Source: Sulfurovum lithotrophicum | GTDB lineage: Bacteria > Campylobacterota > Campylobacteria > Campylobacterales > Sulfurovaceae | DNA length: 64,000 nt | Assembly (NCBI RefSeq): GCF_000987835.1 | Contig: NZ_CP011308.1 | Location: forward strand, 1,674,001-1,738,000 | Direction of reading: 5' to 3' | Part shown: positions 17,428 through 28,617 of the stretch, one piece after another | How the letters are laid out: each line of letters opens with the position of its first letter | How positions within the stretch are numbered: the stretch's first letter is position 1 | Program-made: the position numbers and the translations under genes | The notes under the pieces: model-generated | The model's database searches: none | What the model was told of the DNA's origin: nothing | What the model saw: the letters and a program-made list of their open reading frames with translations, nothing else

Positions 17428-18228
17428 CTATTTTTTATCAGGAATGATTACTTTGGCATACATGCCCGGGAAAATATTGTTATCCCCTTTATCAAATGAA
17501 ACACGCATTTTGATCTTGTGTGTCATAGGGTTGGCATCAGGAATGATCGCTTTGATCTTCCCGATCGTTCTATATTCAATGGAAGGGATCACCACTGCAA
17601 GTTTTTGTCCTTCATGTACCCGGTTTATGATCCCTTCCGATAGAGAAACATCAATCTCAAGATGCTCTGTATCGACGATCATAATGGCCAACATACCGGG
17701 CATAAGCATATCACCTACTTTGATATTTTTTTGTACTACGACACCGTCTGCCGGAGCTTTCATCTTGAGATAATTGAAGACCACCGCCATCTGTTTGACC
17801 TGCTCCGCAGCATGCTTGACCATGATCTTGGTCGATTCAAGCATCGCTTTGACGGTCTCAATCTGTCCTTCAAGATCATCCATACCAAACCCGGTCATAC
17901 CATACTTCTTTTTGACGTTCTCTTTCTTTTTATTGATCACACGCAGACGGTCTTTCCAATATTCCAACGCTATCTGTGACTGCTCAAGCATCAAGTTGGC
18001 CTGCGTTTTCATAATGTCGAATTCAGCTGACTCCATCTCATAGAGATCATCTTCACGCTTGACTTTGTCACCCAGTTTGACATAAACTTTTTTCACGTAA
18101 CCCATATATCGGCTTCCGATCATTTTCTGTCCGTCGGAAACCACTGTCCCTGTCAGTGAAATACTGCCGGCATGTACAAAACTTCCCAAAAGAAGCAGAA
18201 AAAGGGTAATTTTTTGTAGTCTTAACAT
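17428..18228 (-). CDS. Periplasmic efflux adaptor (HlyD/RND membrane-fusion family), orphan
   Basis: A 266-residue membrane-fusion protein with signal peptide (KITLFLLLLGSFVHA), a split lipoyl-like domain around a central helical hairpin (coiled coil about residues 60-155), and a C-terminal beta-barrel ending FPGMYAKVIIP. It is clearly paralogous to the adaptor at 26408-27202: both share a VVSD-QKM--SRYMGY segment near the mature N-terminus and the NPMTHKIK/NPMTHKFK segment near the C-terminus. No pump or outer-membrane channel gene is adjacent, so it may serve the RND operon 5 kb away or a pump elsewhere. The ribosome binding site is weak. Confidence 0.85.
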   Translation of the reverse strand: MLRLQKITLFLLLLGSFVHAGSISLTGTVVSDGQKMIGSRYMGYVKKVYVKLGDKVKREDDLYEMESAEFDIMKTQANLMLEQSQIALEYWKDRLRVINKKKENVKKKYGMTGFGMDDLEGQIETVKAMLESTKIMVKHAAEQVKQMAVVFNYLKMKAPADGVVVQKNIKVGDMLMPGMLAIMIVDTEHLEIDVSLSEGIINRVHEGQKLAVVIPSIEYRTIGKIKAIIPDANPMTHKIKMRVSFDKGDNNIFPGMYAKVIIPDKK

Positions 18229-18325: not shown

Positions 18326-18748
18326 TTACCATTTTCTCAGACGTACATGGCATTTCATGCACTGTCCTGAGATCTTGCTGTATGCCTGTAGGGCCTGGAC
18401 TGCATCTCCGTCAGAGAAACGCTCTTCAACATCGTTTGCTTTGTTCTTGATTTTCTTTTGGATTTTCCGTGTCATCTTCAGATCATTATTCAACCATTTT
18501 TCATAAATATCTTTATTGTTCACTTCTGAATCGATCGGTCTGACATTTGTGATGGTCTCCTTAAGCACTTTTGTTCCCGCTTTGATAATATCGACATTGT
18601 TATAGAAGAAGCCGGACTGTATATCCTGCATCGCCTGTGCCATCTTCTGCATATCTGCAATCCTGTCTGCCTGCGTATACCCTTCTGCCATCGCAAAAGC
18701 CGTTGTTACAGCCGTTAACAGTGTAAACCGACGTAATAATTCTACCAT
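18326..18748 (-). CDS. Cytochrome c-prime-like periplasmic monohaem protein
   Basis: A 140-residue exported protein: signal peptide up to about residue 21 (ending AFAMA), then an alpha-helical body, then a single haem c motif CMKCH at residues 130-134, six residues from the end. A helical bundle with the haem motif at the extreme C-terminus is the layout of class II cytochromes c (cytochrome c-prime), which bind NO or CO or act as electron carriers. The sequence match is by architecture only. The ribosome binding site AAGGGGATG precedes the ATG. It lies upstream of the orphan adaptor gene with a 97-base gap. Confidence 0.75.
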   Translation of the reverse strand: MVELLRRFTLLTAVTTAFAMAEGYTQADRIADMQKMAQAMQDIQSGFFYNNVDIIKAGTKVLKETITNVRPIDSEVNNKDIYEKWLNNDLKMTRKIQKKIKNKANDVEERFSDGDAVQALQAYSKISGQCMKCHVRLRKW

Positions 18749-18944
18749 TTTATCATCCCCTTATCGATAATATTATTAGATAACAACATTGTAACCAATT
18801 ATCTTTAATGAAACAATTACATTTATTATCATCATCAAGTTTAATTACATTTTTTTATACAGTTTAAGTTTTAATTTAAATATTTGTTGATAAGATGCTG
18901 ATAGGTGATACCTACAAATCAACAACCAAACAAAAGGATGGTAT

Positions 18945-20030
18945 ATGAAAAAAACAGTAATTTCATGTGTAGCAGCAGCGGCACTTTTAACAAGTGCTCA
19001 AGCAGATTTCAGCTTTGGAGACATGTTCAAAGATATGAAAGAAGCAGCGATTTCTATGAGTAAAGATGCTAAAGACAGCGTCGAGTCCATGAAAGACGGT
19101 GCAGTAGAAACAAGTAAGAGTGCTGAAAGAACCGTAACAAATGTAAGTGCGGATGCAAAAGATACATCTGTCAAAGTATCTGACGACCTTAAAACAGCAC
19201 AAGTTTCAACAAGTAAAGATGTCAGAGATGCAACAGTGGAAGTAGCGGAAGATACAAAAGATTCTATTACTAACACAACAAAAGATCTTAAAGACTCTAC
19301 TACGATCGCATCCAAAGATATGAAAGATTCGGCTATTTCCGTTTCAAAAGATATCAATGATGCAACGAAAACTGTTTCAAACGACTCAAGAGACTCAGTC
19401 AAAACTGTTTCAAATGATTCAAGAGATTCCGTAAAAACTGTCTCGAATGATACAACTGATTCAGTCAAAACTGTTTCCAACGACTCAAGAGACTCAGTCA
19501 AAACAGTTTCAAACGACTCAAGAGATTCTGTTAAAACTGTTTCAAACGACACAACTGACTCAGTCAAAACTGTTTCAAACGATTCGAGAGATTCCGTTAA
19601 AACCGTTTCCAACGATTCCAGAGATTCTGTTAAAACAGTTTCAAACGATACAAGAGATTCCGTTCAAACCGTTTCCAACGATCTTGATGATACAACAAAA
19701 ACAGTTTCCAACGATTCAAGAGATTCTGTAAAAACCGTTTCAAATGATTCAAGAGATTCTGTACAAACTGTATCCAACGATACAAGAGACTCTGTAAAAG
19801 AAGTTTCCAACGATCTTGATGATACAACAAGAACAGTATCCAACGATTCCAGAGATTCTGTCAAGAGAGTTTCAGACAATGTCAACGACTCTACAAAAAC
19901 GATCTCCAACGATTCAAGAGATTCTGTAAAAGACGTTTCCGACAATGCGAACGACTCTACAAAAACGATCTCAAAAGAGACAAGAAAATCAGTAAAAGAA
20001 GTGGCTGACGATAACGACGCGCACAAATAA
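18945..20030 (+). CDS. Exported hendecad-repeat protein, LEA-like
   Basis: A 361-residue protein with a signal peptide (residues 1-20, ending SAQA) and a mature part built almost wholly of 11-residue units. Degenerate units run from about residue 39 (SKDAKDSVESM) with one 7-residue interruption; 19 close copies of the unit TVSNDSRDSVK span residues 143-351. Hydrophobic residues recur at unit positions 2 and 10, with a variable one at position 6, spaced 3-4-4 as in right-handed hendecad coiled coils. The same spacing is found in the 11-mer motif of group 3 LEA proteins. No Cys or Trp occurs in the mature chain, and Asp, Ser, Lys and Thr dominate. The ATG has AAGGATG upstream. A desiccation, osmotic or membrane-protective role in the periplasm is inference. 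Confidence 0.85.
   Translation: MKKTVISCVAAAALLTSAQADFSFGDMFKDMKEAAISMSKDAKDSVESMKDGAVETSKSAERTVTNVSADAKDTSVKVSDDLKTAQVSTSKDVRDATVEVAEDTKDSITNTTKDLKDSTTIASKDMKDSAISVSKDINDATKTVSNDSRDSVKTVSNDSRDSVKTVSNDTTDSVKTVSNDSRDSVKTVSNDSRDSVKTVSNDTTDSVKTVSNDSRDSVKTVSNDSRDSVKTVSNDTRDSVQTVSNDLDDTTKTVSNDSRDSVKTVSNDSRDSVQTVSNDTRDSVKEVSNDLDDTTRTVSNDSRDSVKRVSDNVNDSTKTISNDSRDSVKDVSDNANDSTKTISKETRKSVKEVADDNDAHK
19371..19997 (+). repeat. 33-base tandem coding repeat, 19 units
   Basis: Nineteen in-frame 33-base units encode the hendecads. Two three-unit blocks (19371-19469, 19470-19568; pattern SR, SR, TT) are followed by two four-unit blocks (19569-19700, 19701-19832; pattern SR, SR, TR, LD). Units of identical protein sequence differ at synonymous positions. 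Confidence 0.9.
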
Positions 20031-20048: not shown

Positions 20049-20079
20049 GAAAAGCTACCGTAACTTTTGGTAGCTTTTC
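20049..20079 (+). terminator. Terminator after the hendecad-repeat gene
   Basis: An 11-base perfect stem GAAAAGCTACC/GGTAGCTTTTC, 18 bases past the stop, followed by ACTTCTATT. Confidence 0.7.
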
Positions 20080-23048: not shown

Positions 23049-24773
23049 TTATTTTGTAATAGAAATACTGTCTTTGCGTTTACCGTGTTCATCAAGATGG
23101 AAATCCATCGCTTTTGAATTGTGCATCAGTACCGGTACGAAGATCAGCGATACAAAGACCGCCGCTACCGTACCAGAGATCAGTGCGACACCCAGACCGC
23201 CAAAGACAGGGTCGGAAGCAAGCAGTGCCGAACCAAGGATGATCGCAACAGCGGTCAGTGCGATTGGTTTCGCTCTGGTCGCCGTTGCAGTGGCAATTGC
23301 CTCTTTCTTGTCCATACCGTGATATTCCATCAGCGACTTGGCAAAGTCGATCAGAAGCAGTGAGTTCCTCGAACTGATACCCATCAGGGCGATAAAGCCG
23401 ATCAGCGAGGTCGCTGTCAGGAAGAAGGTCTCACTCGTAAAGAAGTTGGCCACCCAGTGCCCTACGATCACACCAATAAGAGAGAGGAACGATCCAAGCA
23501 GGATAATACCCGAAATGGCAAAGCTCTTATAGTAGATCACCAATAGCAGGAAGATCAGTACCAATGCAGCGATGAACGCACCACCAAGATCCCTGAAGGT
23601 ATCAAGTGTCACTTTCATCTCACCGTCCCAGCGAAGCAGGAACTTTTCTCCGGTCTTTTTATCCGTCAGGTAAAGATCGAACATATAGGTTGTAAATCCG
23701 GCCTTCTCGATCTCATAATCTTTGGAGAATGCTTCTATCATTTTCTCTCTTGCATCAAGCAGCGGATAGACCTGAGAGACCATGTCCGTTTCGGCAACAA
23801 CATTGACCATACGGGAAAGGTCTTTGTGCATAATCATCGGACTCGATTTTACCTTCCTGATCGTCACCACTTCACTGAGTGGTACCATCATCCCTTTCAT
23901 GTTCATCAGGTTCAAAGAAGAAAGTTTGCTTCGCAATTCATTTTCATTACGTCCATTCAGTGTTTTACTCTCTTTTTGTAATATGAGGAATATCGGTATC
24001 TGGTCAGGCACGTCTTTTGAGTTCTTGTGTGCTATGACCATCCCCTCGAATGCCAGATAAAGAATGTTGTTTACCTGTTCAACGCTCAATCCGCTTCTGG
24101 CCACCTTTTCTTTGTCTGGAATCAGTTCAAATTTATCAAAAATATCGTCCATCATCACGTCAATATCGACAAGACCTTCGGTTTTTGCAAAAATATTTGC
24201 AACACGTACAGAAATGTCACGGACTTTCTTCAGGTTCTCACCATGCACTTCAAGTACAATAGAAGCCAGTGTCGGAGGTCCGGCAGGCTGTTCAACGAAT
24301 TTGATGTTGGTTCCCTTGACCAGAGGCAGACATTTCTTTTTAACGATGGGTCTAAGTCTCTGTGTCATGAGAAAAGAGGGTTCTGCTCTCGTATGTTTGT
24401 CCGTAAGATTGACAGAAATTTCTGAAACATTCTCCGTACTTTTCATCGCTGCACCTTTGACAAGTCCCGCATAATCAAGTGGTATACCCTGCCCGCGGAA
24501 GAGCTCAAGGTTCATGATCTCTTTTTCATCTTTAAGTATATCGATGACACACTGGTTGACCTTGTCTGTCTGTTCTATGGAAGATCCCGTCGGTGTATCC
24601 ACATAGACAGAGAAGGTATTGTCGCTTTTTCCGGGAAGCATTTTTGCCAGCACCATTTTGGTGGGAAACATCATCAAAGAGAGGAAGAAAGCCGCTGCTG
24701 TCAATACAATGACCAGCATCTTCTTGCTTTTACTGCTAAGGATGCCGTAAATGAATTTTTCCAAACCTTTCAT
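23049..24773 (-). CDS. RND efflux permease, C-terminal half (TM7-12)
   Basis: A 574-residue protein equal to the second half of an AcrB/CusA-type RND pump. An N-terminal membrane helix (MLVIVLTAAAFFLSLMMF) is TM7, then a large periplasmic region beginning KSDNTFSVYVDTPTGSS, then TM8-12 with the family segment SRNSLLLIDFA. It begins exactly at the cytoplasmic TM6-TM7 junction of a normal pump. The ATG overlaps the upstream stop as TAATG with GGAGG just before it, so it is made by coupled translation. Intact RND pumps are single chains of about 1030-1100 residues; the two halves here total 1116. A sequencing frameshift is unlikely because both ends carry proper translation signals. Confidence 0.9.
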   Translation of the reverse strand: MKGLEKFIYGILSSKSKKMLVIVLTAAAFFLSLMMFPTKMVLAKMLPGKSDNTFSVYVDTPTGSSIEQTDKVNQCVIDILKDEKEIMNLELFRGQGIPLDYAGLVKGAAMKSTENVSEISVNLTDKHTRAEPSFLMTQRLRPIVKKKCLPLVKGTNIKFVEQPAGPPTLASIVLEVHGENLKKVRDISVRVANIFAKTEGLVDIDVMMDDIFDKFELIPDKEKVARSGLSVEQVNNILYLAFEGMVIAHKNSKDVPDQIPIFLILQKESKTLNGRNENELRSKLSSLNLMNMKGMMVPLSEVVTIRKVKSSPMIMHKDLSRMVNVVAETDMVSQVYPLLDAREKMIEAFSKDYEIEKAGFTTYMFDLYLTDKKTGEKFLLRWDGEMKVTLDTFRDLGGAFIAALVLIFLLLVIYYKSFAISGIILLGSFLSLIGVIVGHWVANFFTSETFFLTATSLIGFIALMGISSRNSLLLIDFAKSLMEYHGMDKKEAIATATATRAKPIALTAVAIILGSALLASDPVFGGLGVALISGTVAAVFVSLIFVPVLMHNSKAMDFHLDEHGKRKDSISITK

Positions 24774-26401
24774 TACTTGACCTCCTTGTTCTTTTTATCT
24801 TTTTTATGATGATGGTGCTTATGTACCGGTTTTTTCAACAGTTTCAAACTCAAATACGGTGTAAAGATATACGCCACAAAAAGTGAAGCGATCAATGCCA
24901 CCGGTACATTATAGGGGATAGGCTTCATGAACGATCCCATCATGCCCCCGACAAATGCCATCGGTACCATCGTCAGAATGATCGCAAGTGTCGCAACGTT
25001 TGTAGGTGCACCGATCTCATCAGTCGCTTCGATCAACAGCTGATCCATCTCTTTCTCATCAACATCATGTGCATGCAGGTGCCTGTGGATATTTTCGATC
25101 ACAATGATCGCCGCATCCACCAGTAGTCCCAGCGAGAGCAGGAAGGCAAAGAGGGTGATCCTGTTGATCGTCTGTCCGGAGAGATAGGCTACGAAAAGTG
25201 TGATAGCCAAAATAGCCGGCACGGTAAAGGTAACGATCAGAGACTCTTTCCATCCCAAAGCAAATACCAGCATCAAAGCGATGATGACAATGGTGATGAT
25301 CAGGTGATTCATCAACTCGTTAACCGCTTCATTCGCACGTTCACCATAGTTTCGTGTAATAATGTAACCTATCCCCTCTTTGGCGAATTCTTTTTCATGT
25401 TCCTTCAGGACTTCGAGTACATCTTCGGCAACGAAGACCGCATTGGTCCCGGCAAGTTTTGCCACAGTAAGCGTCACCTGGTTTCTCTCTTCGCCGAGTT
25501 TGGTCGCATTGGCATCTTCCTTAAAACGCACTGTCGCTGTTTTAAAGTTCTGTATGTCCATACCTTCGGTTACTTTGGCAACGTCCCTGAGATAAATCGG
25601 TGACCCCATGTACTGTGCCACTATAACAGAACCGACATCCTGAACATTCTCTATAGCATTTTTGACACCGAAGATCACCAGCTCATTATTTTTAGTACGT
25701 CCTTTGACATCGGGAACATCCACAGCAACGGACTGTACCGCCTTCATGATCTGCCCCATCGAAAGGTGATAGGCGGAGAGTTTGCTCATATCCACCTCGA
25801 TGTTGTATTGCGCCTTTCTGGCACCCTTCAGGGTTGTTTTAGCCACATTATCCACGGCATTGATCTTCTGCTGTATTTTTCTCACCATTTCAAAGAGTTT
25901 AACATCATCAACATTACTCCCTTTTTTTGGGTAGAATGCCACAGTGACAATAGGAATATCGATGTCGATATCAAACGGTTTGATCAAAGGTTGCATGACC
26001 CCTTTTGGCATCAGGTCCATGTTCTGCATGACCTTGTCATAGAGTTTTAGGTTAGAATCTTCACGGTTCTCACCGATATAGTACATAACACTGACGACCC
26101 CATAGTTATTAAATGCCTGTCCGTAAATATGCTCAATACCTTTGACCTCACGCAGTTTACGCTCCAGGGGATTGATAATGATATTCTCGATCTCACGAGG
26201 CGTTGCTCCGGGCATCGCTACGACAACCCCACCACCGGAAATTGCGATCTGTGGATCTTCCTCTCTTGGCATGATATTGAGTGCCAAATATCCCATAAGG
26301 AGCAAAAATACACCCAGTACCGCGGTCAAAGGATTGCGTAAAAATCCTTTTGCAAGCTTCCCGGCATAGTCCGTTACCTGATATTCATTTTTTTCAGCCA
26401 T
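24773..26401 (-). CDS. RND efflux permease, N-terminal half (TM1-6) with His/Lys-rich tail
   Basis: A 542-residue first half of an RND pump: TM1 (LTAVLGVFLLLMGYLAL), a periplasmic porter and docking region, and TM2-6 with the TM4 motif GLLVDAAIIVIEN containing a single Asp, unlike the Asp pair of AcrB. It ends after TM6 with a cytoplasmic tail HKHHHHKKDKKNK that could bind metal or contact the other half. The Asp and the TM10 region of the other half would together form the proton relay, so both chains should be needed. It follows the adaptor gene (start 26401, adaptor stop 26408). Substrate unknown. Confidence 0.9.
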   Translation of the reverse strand: MAEKNEYQVTDYAGKLAKGFLRNPLTAVLGVFLLLMGYLALNIMPREEDPQIAISGGGVVVAMPGATPREIENIIINPLERKLREVKGIEHIYGQAFNNYGVVSVMYYIGENREDSNLKLYDKVMQNMDLMPKGVMQPLIKPFDIDIDIPIVTVAFYPKKGSNVDDVKLFEMVRKIQQKINAVDNVAKTTLKGARKAQYNIEVDMSKLSAYHLSMGQIMKAVQSVAVDVPDVKGRTKNNELVIFGVKNAIENVQDVGSVIVAQYMGSPIYLRDVAKVTEGMDIQNFKTATVRFKEDANATKLGEERNQVTLTVAKLAGTNAVFVAEDVLEVLKEHEKEFAKEGIGYIITRNYGERANEAVNELMNHLIITIVIIALMLVFALGWKESLIVTFTVPAILAITLFVAYLSGQTINRITLFAFLLSLGLLVDAAIIVIENIHRHLHAHDVDEKEMDQLLIEATDEIGAPTNVATLAIILTMVPMAFVGGMMGSFMKPIPYNVPVALIASLFVAYIFTPYLSLKLLKKPVHKHHHHKKDKKNKEVK

Positions 26402-26407
26402 ATTACT

Positions 26408-27202
26408 TTACCTGATAATGATTTTGGCATACATGCCGGGATAAACCGACTTGCCTTTGTGGTCAAACTCTATCTTGATCTTGAATTTGTGTGTCATAGG
26501 ATTGGAACTCGGTATGATAGACGAGATCTTTCCTGTCGTTTTCAACGCCAGAGATGGTATTTCCACTTCGACTTTTTTACCCAGACTAATATGGGGTAAC
26601 TGTGTTTCAGAGATCTCCGCAACGATCTTGAGACGACTTAGGTCTGTCAGAACCACAGCAGGCATTCCGGGAATGGCCATCTCCCCCTCATTGATCTTTT
26701 TTGCAACAATAACACCGTCATTGGGAGCGGTGATCTTCAGGTAATTATACTGATTAAGCACTTCTTCTTTTTTTGCCAAGGCCTGGTTGACCTGCTCCTG
26801 GGATATAGTTACCATATCTTTAAGGTTCTTTGCTGCCAGTTGAAGAGTTTCCAACTCATATTTGGAAACCATCTTCTTCTCATAAAGTCTTTTGTGTCTC
26901 GCTAAGTTGAGTATAACGTTGTTATATTGGTTTTTGTTCATCTGCAGTGCCAGTCTTGCCTGTGAGATCGCAAGATCAACCTGTCTTTCCGCTGCTTCGA
27001 TCTCTTTGGAGTCGATCTCGTAAAGCAATTGCCCTTTTTTTACGATATCACCTTCCGATACCGCCATGTTTTTAATATAACCCATATAACGGCTTGTCAT
27101 CATCTTCTGGTTATCAGATACAACCGATCCGCTCAAGTCAATTTCTACTGCACTCAGCGTTGTCAGTAGGGCAGCTGCCATTAGTGTAATGATCTTTTTC
27201 AT
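26408..27202 (-). CDS. RND efflux periplasmic adaptor
   Basis: A 264-residue membrane-fusion protein with signal peptide (IITLMAAALLTTLSAVE), lipoyl halves flanking a helical hairpin (about residues 60-145), a beta-barrel, and the ending YPGMYAKIIIR. It bridges the inner-membrane RND pump and the outer-membrane channel. The start at 27202 overlaps the end of the upstream channel gene (27199) by four bases, and the pump genes follow within 7 bases, so this is one tripartite operon. It is paralogous to the orphan adaptor at 17428-18228. Confidence 0.9.
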   Translation of the reverse strand: MKKIITLMAAALLTTLSAVEIDLSGSVVSDNQKMMTSRYMGYIKNMAVSEGDIVKKGQLLYEIDSKEIEAAERQVDLAISQARLALQMNKNQYNNVILNLARHKRLYEKKMVSKYELETLQLAAKNLKDMVTISQEQVNQALAKKEEVLNQYNYLKITAPNDGVIVAKKINEGEMAIPGMPAVVLTDLSRLKIVAEISETQLPHISLGKKVEVEIPSLALKTTGKISSIIPSSNPMTHKFKIKIEFDHKGKSVYPGMYAKIIIR

Positions 27203-28617
27203 ACATCTCCTCCTTTGTTTATAATACTTTCAAGTTCGAATATTTTGGTATTTCTCTTGTTGACCACCGTTAAGAGTTTTAAGAGTGATTCAAGCTGTTT
27301 GGACTGCTGGATCAGCACATCTGTAATAGAAGCAAGTCCTTCTTCATAGCGTGTCCTATAGTTTTCATAGACTCTTTTGGCAAACTGTAGCTGTTTCTTA
27401 TAGCTCTTGATATCCGCATCTGCACTCAATATCTCTGTTTTGAGTTTTTTTGCCTTAAGTACGATCCCTTTTTTAGCCAACTCGACCTGGTCACGCACCT
27501 GCAGACGTTTGAGTTTCGCTTTCTCAAGTCTGGCATCGTCCTGCCCGCCGTTGAAGATGTTCCATTTTGCCTGAACACCGAAAGTATAGGAATCTTTTCC
27601 GGTAAAATCGTTAAAGAGCGTATTGTCTGCACTTCCATACTCTGCAAAACCACCCACCGTCGGTAAAAAACTTGACTTTTCCACTTTAACTGCCATTTCA
27701 GAAATCTGTAATCCAAGCTTGGCTTTTTGAATATCGATATTGTTTAATTCAAGCGTATGCTTGTCCACATGTGGCATTGGTGCTCTGGCACTGACCTTAT
27801 GAATGGAACTTATATCTCTATTAAGCAGGAAAGAAAGAAACTGGTAAGCAAGATCTCTGTTAAGTTTTGCCTGGTTATACATACTATCAGCCTCGGCTTT
27901 TCTCGCCTGTACTTCAAGCAGATCCATCTCTTTGGCATAGCCTTCCTTCTGCATATTCCTAATCACATCTTCGAGTGTATTAATGTTCTTCCTGATCTTG
28001 GAGAGATTGGTAATATAACGTTCCACCAGAGAAATATCGTAAAAAGCTTTTTTTACTTCATATATTTTAACATTCAAGAGTTTTTGCGTATCGTATTTGC
28101 TCATACGGTACATTGATTCCATGATATGTTTATACTCTGTCAGTTTACCGCCGGTATAGATAGGTAGCATATAGGAGAGTTTTGTCTGGTAGTTGTTTCT
28201 GGCGCCGGGATAATTCAGGTCATGTGGCTGAATTTCCAATATACTGCTCATACCTTGAAGCATTTGCGGTGTCAATTGCCCGTTATTCGCAGCCATTAAT
28301 GCATTTCCTATCGGTTCAAGGAATTGGCTGAAACCAAAATCTCCAAATGTCGCTTCCCTGTCCATCAGCTTAAAACCAAAAACATTCAAAGCATCGTTGG
28401 AGCGCATTCCTGAAAGAGTGACATCAAGAGAACCGTAGTTCATACCTTCTGCCACCTTTACTTCCATAGCCTGCATCTGTTCATTGAAACGTGCGACCTT
28501 TACTTCCAGGTTATCATGCTTCACCATATCCAATGCCTCGCGAAGTGGCAGGTTCTTTACTCCCGCAACAAGCGGTAAAGAAAGAGATAATAAAAGTATC
28601 ACTCTTTTCATCATCAT
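27199..28617 (-). CDS. TolC-family outer-membrane efflux channel
   Basis: A 472-residue outer-membrane factor: signal peptide (VILLLSLSLPLVAG), then two repeated long helical and beta segments typical of TolC (for example SLVERYITNLSKIRKNINTLEDVIRN region and the later KRVYENYRTRYEEGLASITDVL segment). It is the first gene of the efflux operon and ends with a four-base overlap into the adaptor gene. Two candidate promoters and two palindromes precede it (28642-28699). No regulator gene is adjacent. Confidence 0.9.
   Translation of the reverse strand: MMMKRVILLLSLSLPLVAGVKNLPLREALDMVKHDNLEVKVARFNEQMQAMEVKVAEGMNYGSLDVTLSGMRSNDALNVFGFKLMDREATFGDFGFSQFLEPIGNALMAANNGQLTPQMLQGMSSILEIQPHDLNYPGARNNYQTKLSYMLPIYTGGKLTEYKHIMESMYRMSKYDTQKLLNVKIYEVKKAFYDISLVERYITNLSKIRKNINTLEDVIRNMQKEGYAKEMDLLEVQARKAEADSMYNQAKLNRDLAYQFLSFLLNRDISSIHKVSARAPMPHVDKHTLELNNIDIQKAKLGLQISEMAVKVEKSSFLPTVGGFAEYGSADNTLFNDFTGKDSYTFGVQAKWNIFNGGQDDARLEKAKLKRLQVRDQVELAKKGIVLKAKKLKTEILSADADIKSYKKQLQFAKRVYENYRTRYEEGLASITDVLIQQSKQLESLLKLLTVVNKRNTKIFELESIINKGGDV

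Follow-up and report, generated by a model that had tools for sequence, protein, structure and literature searches.

An exported 11-residue-repeat helix protein predicted to serve an RND envelope module in Sulfurovum lithotrophicum

Long amphipathic helices built from 11-residue units are best studied in the apolipoproteins, perilipins and synucleins of animals. Tripartite RND pumps, such as those of the CusABC and AcrAB-TolC type, are a second group of relevance here, and we know of no described RND pump with a cytochrome, a DUF302-like protein or an 11-mer helix protein; in the literature searched, no RND pump with such extra components was found. Perilipin 4 has an 11-mer amphipathic helix that coats oil (PMC8064757), and the published hydrophobic moments of helices of this kind are 0.39 for ApoA-I, 0.35 for Plin3 and 0.257 for Plin4 (PMC5889406).

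Sulfurovum lithotrophicum 42BKT, a deep-sea bacterium, is described as a sulfur-oxidizing chemolithoautotroph in PMC5588614. A window of 64,000 nucleotides from its genome, the whole stretch of DNA that was analysed, encodes an exported protein that consists almost entirely of 11-residue units, here called FAM. A sequence-only reading had described it as an LEA-like protein of an autotrophic bacterium; the autotrophic host is in line with the description above, and the LEA assignment is revised below. A literature search, including Sulfurovum combined with LEA/repeat or with apolipoprotein, found no paper on the FAM protein. The comparisons presented here indicate that FAM probably belongs to a cell-envelope machine that has not been described before.

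Repeat architecture and helical character

The FAM gene (18945-20030, + strand) is an open reading frame of 361 residues with an ATG start preceded by a ribosome site, AAAGGAT, graded good, and it lies exactly where the sequence-only reading had placed it. Two antisense open reading frames (18998-19612 and 19664-20026, - strand) were rejected as genes and are a by-product of the 33-base repeat period. Residues 1-20 (18945-19004, + strand) were recognised by inspection as a signal peptide, MKKTVISCVAAAALLTSAQA followed by DF, with a site of the signal-peptidase-I type and predicted cleavage after A20, between AQA and DF. A signal-peptidase-I-like site and a similar N-terminus are present in 93 of the 94 full-length relatives, and the signal peptide claimed earlier is upheld. 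Residues 21-144 (19005-19376, + strand), distinguished by cross-species identity, form a conserved N-terminal part made up of FSFGDMFKDMKEA... and divergent 11-residue units. This part holds a single, conserved 7-residue interruption, KDGAVET (residues 50-56; 19092-19112, + strand), and is followed by a regular array of 19 units with the consensus SNDSRDSVKTV, the most frequent unit of the protein (residues 145-353; 19377-20003, + strand).

With a register parser, residues 28-353 resolve into 29 units of 11 residues and the one 7-residue interruption, close to the earlier estimate of about 28. The lag-11 identity is 0.54, compared with 0.12 in shuffled sequences (maximum 0.18), and is 0.32 in the divergent N-terminal part alone (shuffle maximum 0.21). 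Exactly one register break, the heptad insert at approximately residue 50, is found in 85 of 89 relatives, and no other break of the 11-residue register is common among them. Since the resulting 11+7 pattern preserves the helical stripe, this break is compatible with a helix. Hydrophobic residues occupy columns 8 (V/T), 11 (V) and 4, which gives the 3-4-4 spacing noted before, with a weak third position: columns 8 and 11 are strong, and column 4, which is 47% hydrophobic, holds M/L/A in the N-terminal units and mostly S/T in the C-terminal units. The composition is one of Val, Thr, Ser, Asp and Asn, low in Ala (4.7%) and Glu, with 0.6% Gly, 0.9% aromatics and a D/E ratio of 6.9; the net charge is about -18 and the mean hydrophobicity near 0. 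Across approximately 23,000 residues of the mature relatives, proline amounts to 0.017% and Cys to zero.

In FAM, hydrophobicity has its spectral maximum at 98 degrees per residue, and in 77 of 77 non-redundant relatives the maximum lies at 98-99 degrees. The share of helical-harmonic power is higher than in 98% of column permutations (p = 0.016), in which the 11 columns are reordered with period and composition unchanged. The mean hydrophobic moment of 0.37 (mean of 0.33 in the relatives) falls within the published range for the lipid-binding helices mentioned above. Counted from the hydrophobic centre, K/R residues lie at +102 and +135 degrees and D residues at -94 and -160 degrees, a charge asymmetry that is not significant by column permutation (p = 0.07). 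AlphaFold2 with 50 relatives returned helix only, with mixed confidence (pLDDT of 71-90 at residues 231-350 and below 50 at residues 1-208); a model of a short relative was all helix with a mean pLDDT of 53 and is uninformative. Foldseek gave no useful match to a solved structure, such rods being poor Foldseek queries, and no useful solved-structure relative was found by sequence. The repeat and its helical periodicity are well established, as the earlier reading had anticipated, and export together with a helical fold is considered highly probable from the sequence.

Protein-level selection is evident in the gene. Between units, pN is 0.20 and pS 0.62 (pN/pS 0.32), and the many synonymous differences between unit copies indicate that the array is kept by selection on the protein and does not reflect a recent DNA expansion. 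The N-terminal 120 residues of the mature protein are 94-99% identical between species, with pN of 0.03-0.05 at pS of 0.60-0.77, where synonymous sites are saturated, and D30, D41, E55 and E61 are among the invariant residues.

Family distribution and the surrounding gene module

In a scan of GTDB genomes, 77 distinct FAM loci were found, all in Campylobacterota where named, mostly in Sulfurovum and also in Sulfurimonas, Nitratifractor and others. These loci and the relatives searched yielded 94 full-length distinct proteins. The relatives are 161-477 residues long with varying repeat number, and each locus has one to five copies, several loci having two or more in tandem. A plasmid search returned only low-identity matches to unrelated repeats. 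A C-terminal tail, [DE]Y.EY.[KR]LK, is conserved in shorter relatives (loci L067, L063, L070, L076, L035 and L065) and is absent from the protein of the window; judged from its sequence, it is possibly a docking motif.

Two genes are divergent from FAM. CYTC (18326-18748, - strand) encodes an exported c'-like monoheme protein of 140 residues with CMKCH near its C-terminus, which matches the Pfam Cytochrome C' profile at E 0.005, below the cut-off (0.0016-0.0028 in orthologues), and MFP1 (17428-18228, - strand) encodes an exported HlyD/CusB-type membrane-fusion protein of 266 residues (HlyD_D23, E 8.6e-28). Downstream of FAM lies P708 (20131-22257, + strand), an exported, weakly DUF302-like protein of 708 residues (DUF302, E 0.096) that adjoins FAM in most loci. 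Close by are the two halves of a split RND permease, RND_C (23049-24773, - strand; ACR_tran, E 1.5e-45, profile positions 846-1016) and RND_N (24773-26401, - strand; ACR_tran, E 1.3e-75, profile positions 5-499), a second membrane-fusion protein, MFP2 (26408-27202, - strand; HlyD_D23, E 1.1e-31), and a TolC-type outer-membrane efflux protein (27199-28617, - strand; OEP, E 2.5e-43). The permease region (23049-26401) thus encodes an N half of 542 and a C half of 574 residues, and many C-half relatives in other Campylobacterales are likewise found as open frames of approximately half length. This arrangement persists in other Campylobacterales families with differing surroundings (L130, L131, L133-L136, L139 and L140), and the genes stay next to each other in several families, at 43-65% identity. 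It is very likely that FAM belongs to a conserved gene module.

The partners of FAM are fixed across genomes. FAM is present in 17 of 199 sampled Campylobacterales genomes, and MFP1 orthologues (E < 1e-70) occur in exactly the same 17 and in 0 of the 182 others, the next matches, at about 1e-62, resembling the MFP2 type. CYTC orthologues (E < 1e-20) occur in 16 of the 17 FAM genomes and in none of the others; both thresholds were chosen after the gap in scores was seen. The Fisher p values of 6e-25 for FAM with MFP1 and 1e-22 for FAM with CYTC overstate the strength of the link, since the thresholds were set in this way and the genomes are related by descent. The RND permease is widespread, being present in 138 of the 199 genomes, and P708-type domains, in 62, are also more broadly distributed. 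FAM, MFP1 and CYTC therefore have the look of a specialised set added to an RND pump of a common type.

The divergent intergenic region (18749-18944) is strongly conserved and carries a ATTGATAATCATCAT-like box, common to many relatives, that resembles a Fur-type dyad. A mafft alignment of 30 such regions revealed a promoter-like element upstream of FAM, TTTAAGT...TTGATAAGAT (18863-18896, + strand), and a second conserved block before CYTC; a scan with the sigma-70 consensus did not detect the element before FAM. Between FAM and P708, a sequence scan identified a terminator-like stem-loop of 12 pairs (20049-20079, + strand), and FAM may therefore be made in larger amounts than P708.

Several other observations concern the surroundings of the module and related clusters. 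OmpP1/FadL/TodX lies beside the module in L134 and L140, and in L135 by sequence likeness only; a LolA-like protein is encoded in the L084 locus and PqiA in L139. These lipid- or hydrophobe-related genes were singled out post hoc and are suggestive only. The genome of S. lithotrophicum has a second MFP1-like and split-RND cluster without an 11-mer protein (L142, G000:C1:863282-866241), which adjoins an OmpP1/FadL porin, with a Ysc84-type protein near. Matches to the DUF302-like N-domain of P708 at G000:C1:1763645, 1767528 and 1771411 have identical scores and lie exactly 3,883 bases apart, a pattern suggestive of a tandem triplication located beyond the window. In locus L141 (G124:C1:1242000-1261500), cytochrome and DJ-1-type genes form an inverted repeat flanking the 11-mer gene, which may reflect an inverted duplication or, alternatively, an artefact of assembly.

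Proposed role and alternative readings

Profile searches place FAM nearest to lipid-binding helices. In Pfam, FAM matches Apolipoprotein A1/A4/E (PF01442; E 3.5e-7, 30.6 bits against a gathering cut-off of 90) and apolipophorin-III (PF07464; E 1.2e-6, under the gathering score), and LEA_4 (PF02987) gave no match to FAM even at E <= 10. Among 50 relatives, the Apolipoprotein profile matched 49 (best E 5.9e-14) and apolipophorin-III 45, below curated cut-offs, synuclein matched 6 and LEA_4 matched 5, with a best E of 0.054. The apolipoprotein-type matches are obtained in the native register and were lost in 4 of 4 column permutations and in the one full shuffle, indicating that the likeness depends on register and not on mere composition. 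The best NCBIfam match is the Ag473 family lipoprotein (NF047840; E 1.3e-5, 25.9 bits, cut-off 100); membership was rejected, given this score and a signal-peptidase-I-like site in place of a usable lipobox. The profile check proposed by the sequence-only reading has therefore turned out on the apolipoprotein side, below cut-offs, and not on the LEA_4 side, and membership of group 3 LEA was rejected despite the 11-residue period. In place of the LEA label, FAM should be described as an exported helix, apolipoprotein/perilipin-like in kind, of an envelope module with RND and cytochrome components.

By analogy, FAM is tentatively regarded as a predicted periplasmic helix of the apolipoprotein/perilipin kind that serves an RND envelope machine, and this reading is preferred here. 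FAM would be exported by Sec and, once in the periplasm, have an unfolded or loosely helical state; nearly all of it would form one long, weakly hydrophobic 3-11 amphipathic helix, in the periplasm or at the surface. On contact with lipid or another hydrophobic surface, it would fold with its Val/Thr/Met stripe lying along that surface, and the helices could pack side by side through the Asp flank and the Lys/Arg flank. The conserved N-terminal part may dock to the MFP1-cytochrome-RND machine, and that machine (MFP1, the c'-like cytochrome, the DUF302-like protein, the split RND permease and TolC) would load, export or rearrange lipid or hydrophobic cargo. We infer surface binding, lateral assembly, the cargo and physical contact with the partners, and a surface-coat or carrier mechanism is held about as tentatively as the reading itself. 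As a hydration protectant would allow many conservative changes, the near-invariant N-terminal part suggests a specific partner, for which MFP1 or the cytochrome, inherited together with FAM, would be the simplest candidates. Against a surface helix stand the mostly Ser/Thr column 4 of the regular array, the very low overall hydrophobicity, the apolipoprotein score far under its cut-off, the non-significant charge asymmetry and the low confidence of both AlphaFold models over the N-terminal part. In addition, FAM carries a net negative charge, unlike Plin4, and would therefore bind acidic bilayers only weakly. That lengths vary threefold among the relatives speaks against a ruler, a fixed spacer or a fixed tether.

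The leading alternative is that FAM forms a hendecad coiled coil: helices would pair or trimerise in water, and the resulting rod or filament in the periplasm would scaffold or tether MFP1-RND. The 3-4-4 register, unbroken but for a single heptad, the beta-branched core positions and the lack of proline agree with such a structure, and D and K/R on opposite flanks could give inter-helix salt bridges. However, there are only two good hydrophobic core positions per 11 residues, the third being Ser/Thr in the regular array, the lengths of the relatives span a threefold range, and a helix of 340 residues, at about 50 nm, exceeds the usual periplasm; no solved coiled coil was matched by sequence or fold, in a search to which rods are poorly suited. 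This reading is considered rather unlikely. The protectant proposed earlier would be disordered in water, turn helical on drying or osmotic stress and shield membranes and proteins. The hydrophilic, 11-residue-periodic sequence rich in S/T/N/D/K and the weak LEA_4 matches in a few relatives would suit it, whereas FAM itself has no such match, its composition is unlike that of LEA proteins in being low in Ala and Glu, and both its N-terminal part, almost invariant across species, and its strict occurrence together with MFP1 and the cytochrome would be better explained if it were a component of an envelope machine; a protectant is quite improbable.

Two further readings concern what the helix might carry or contact. 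As a surface protein contacting elemental sulfur or another solid, FAM would coat a hydrophobic particle and not lipid. The host uses reduced sulfur, perilipin 4 coats oil with a helix of this kind (PMC8064757), and in Sulfurovum indicum with elemental sulfur, HlyD-family genes and a TolC gene were up 1.65-9.64 fold (PMC10045233). A tie of the induced genes to the FAM module is at most putative, PMC10045233 does not name the FAM family, and there is no evidence for FAM secretion past the periplasm; this role is improbable. In the other reading, the N-D-S/T sequon present in most regular units would be used by the PglB of the genome for dense N-glycosylation. FAM has 18 N-x-S/T sites against 7.4 expected from shuffling, and in distinct C-terminal units, Asn at position 2 and Ser/Thr at position 4 are associated, with an odds ratio of 2.7. 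The genome encodes a PglB of 707 residues. Locus L090 (G000:C1:214856-216037) holds a full PglB-type oligosaccharyltransferase with the WWDYG motif and an Arg331 equivalent. In Campylobacter lari PglB, Arg331 reads the acidic residue at position -2 of the sequon. The PglB of S. lithotrophicum is reported as an active enzyme in a work cited in PMC6025236. None of the FAM sites has D/E at -2, the relatives have fewer D/E-x-N-x-S/T sequons than expected (40 against 89), and the PglB retains the Arg aligned with Arg331 of the C. lari enzyme, which together make heavy N-glycosylation highly improbable.

Beyond the preferred reading of FAM as an apolipoprotein/perilipin-like helix, it is conceivable, and unlikely at the present level of evidence, that the FAM helix, acting with a membrane-fusion protein dedicated to this task and with the c'-type cytochrome, turns a common RND pump into an undescribed system for trafficking or coating hydrophobes, possibly sulfur, as a bacterial analogue of apolipoproteins. 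The module would point to an envelope function not yet known in Campylobacterota, which are dominant at sulfidic vents. A bacterial, exported 11-mer helix tied to named genes would allow the search of such helices for hydrophobic surfaces to be studied by genetics, and the 17 of 17 link between FAM and MFP1 makes the function of FAM directly testable by deletion.

Comparison with known helices and pumps

The likeness of FAM to perilipin 4 and the apolipoproteins is understood as one of working principle, and homology is not claimed. With the apolipoproteins and apolipophorin-III, FAM shares an 11-residue periodic amphipathic helix and register-dependent profile matches. It differs from the apolipoproteins in having no proline punctuation, a low hydrophobicity and Val/Thr/Ser in place of Leu/Phe, and also in being bacterial, predicted periplasmic and encoded next to an RND pump, with scores under the gathering cut-offs. 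Perilipin 4 (PMC5889406, PMC8064757) has in common with FAM a monotonous 11-mer helix with a weak, Val/Thr-rich hydrophobic face almost without aromatics, and a preference for Asp over Glu and Lys over Arg. In perilipin 4 the positive charges lie on one side of the helix; those of FAM tend the same way, with the non-significant p of 0.07 given above. Unlike perilipin 4, which is net positive, FAM is net negative, has almost no Gly, is exported and is much shorter.

Group 3 LEA proteins share the 11-residue period and the hydrophilic character, and FAM differs from them in composition and conservation and in having fixed gene partners. The Ag473 lipoprotein has the closest NCBIfam profile, and FAM differs in having no usable lipobox. 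Tripartite RND pumps of the CusABC and AcrAB-TolC type are represented next to FAM by MFP1, MFP2, the RND permease and TolC; in contrast to these pumps, the permease here is encoded by two genes and is accompanied by an extra cytochrome, a DUF302-like protein and the 11-mer helix protein. FAM represents a variant of a familiar type of helix, in genomic surroundings that are new.
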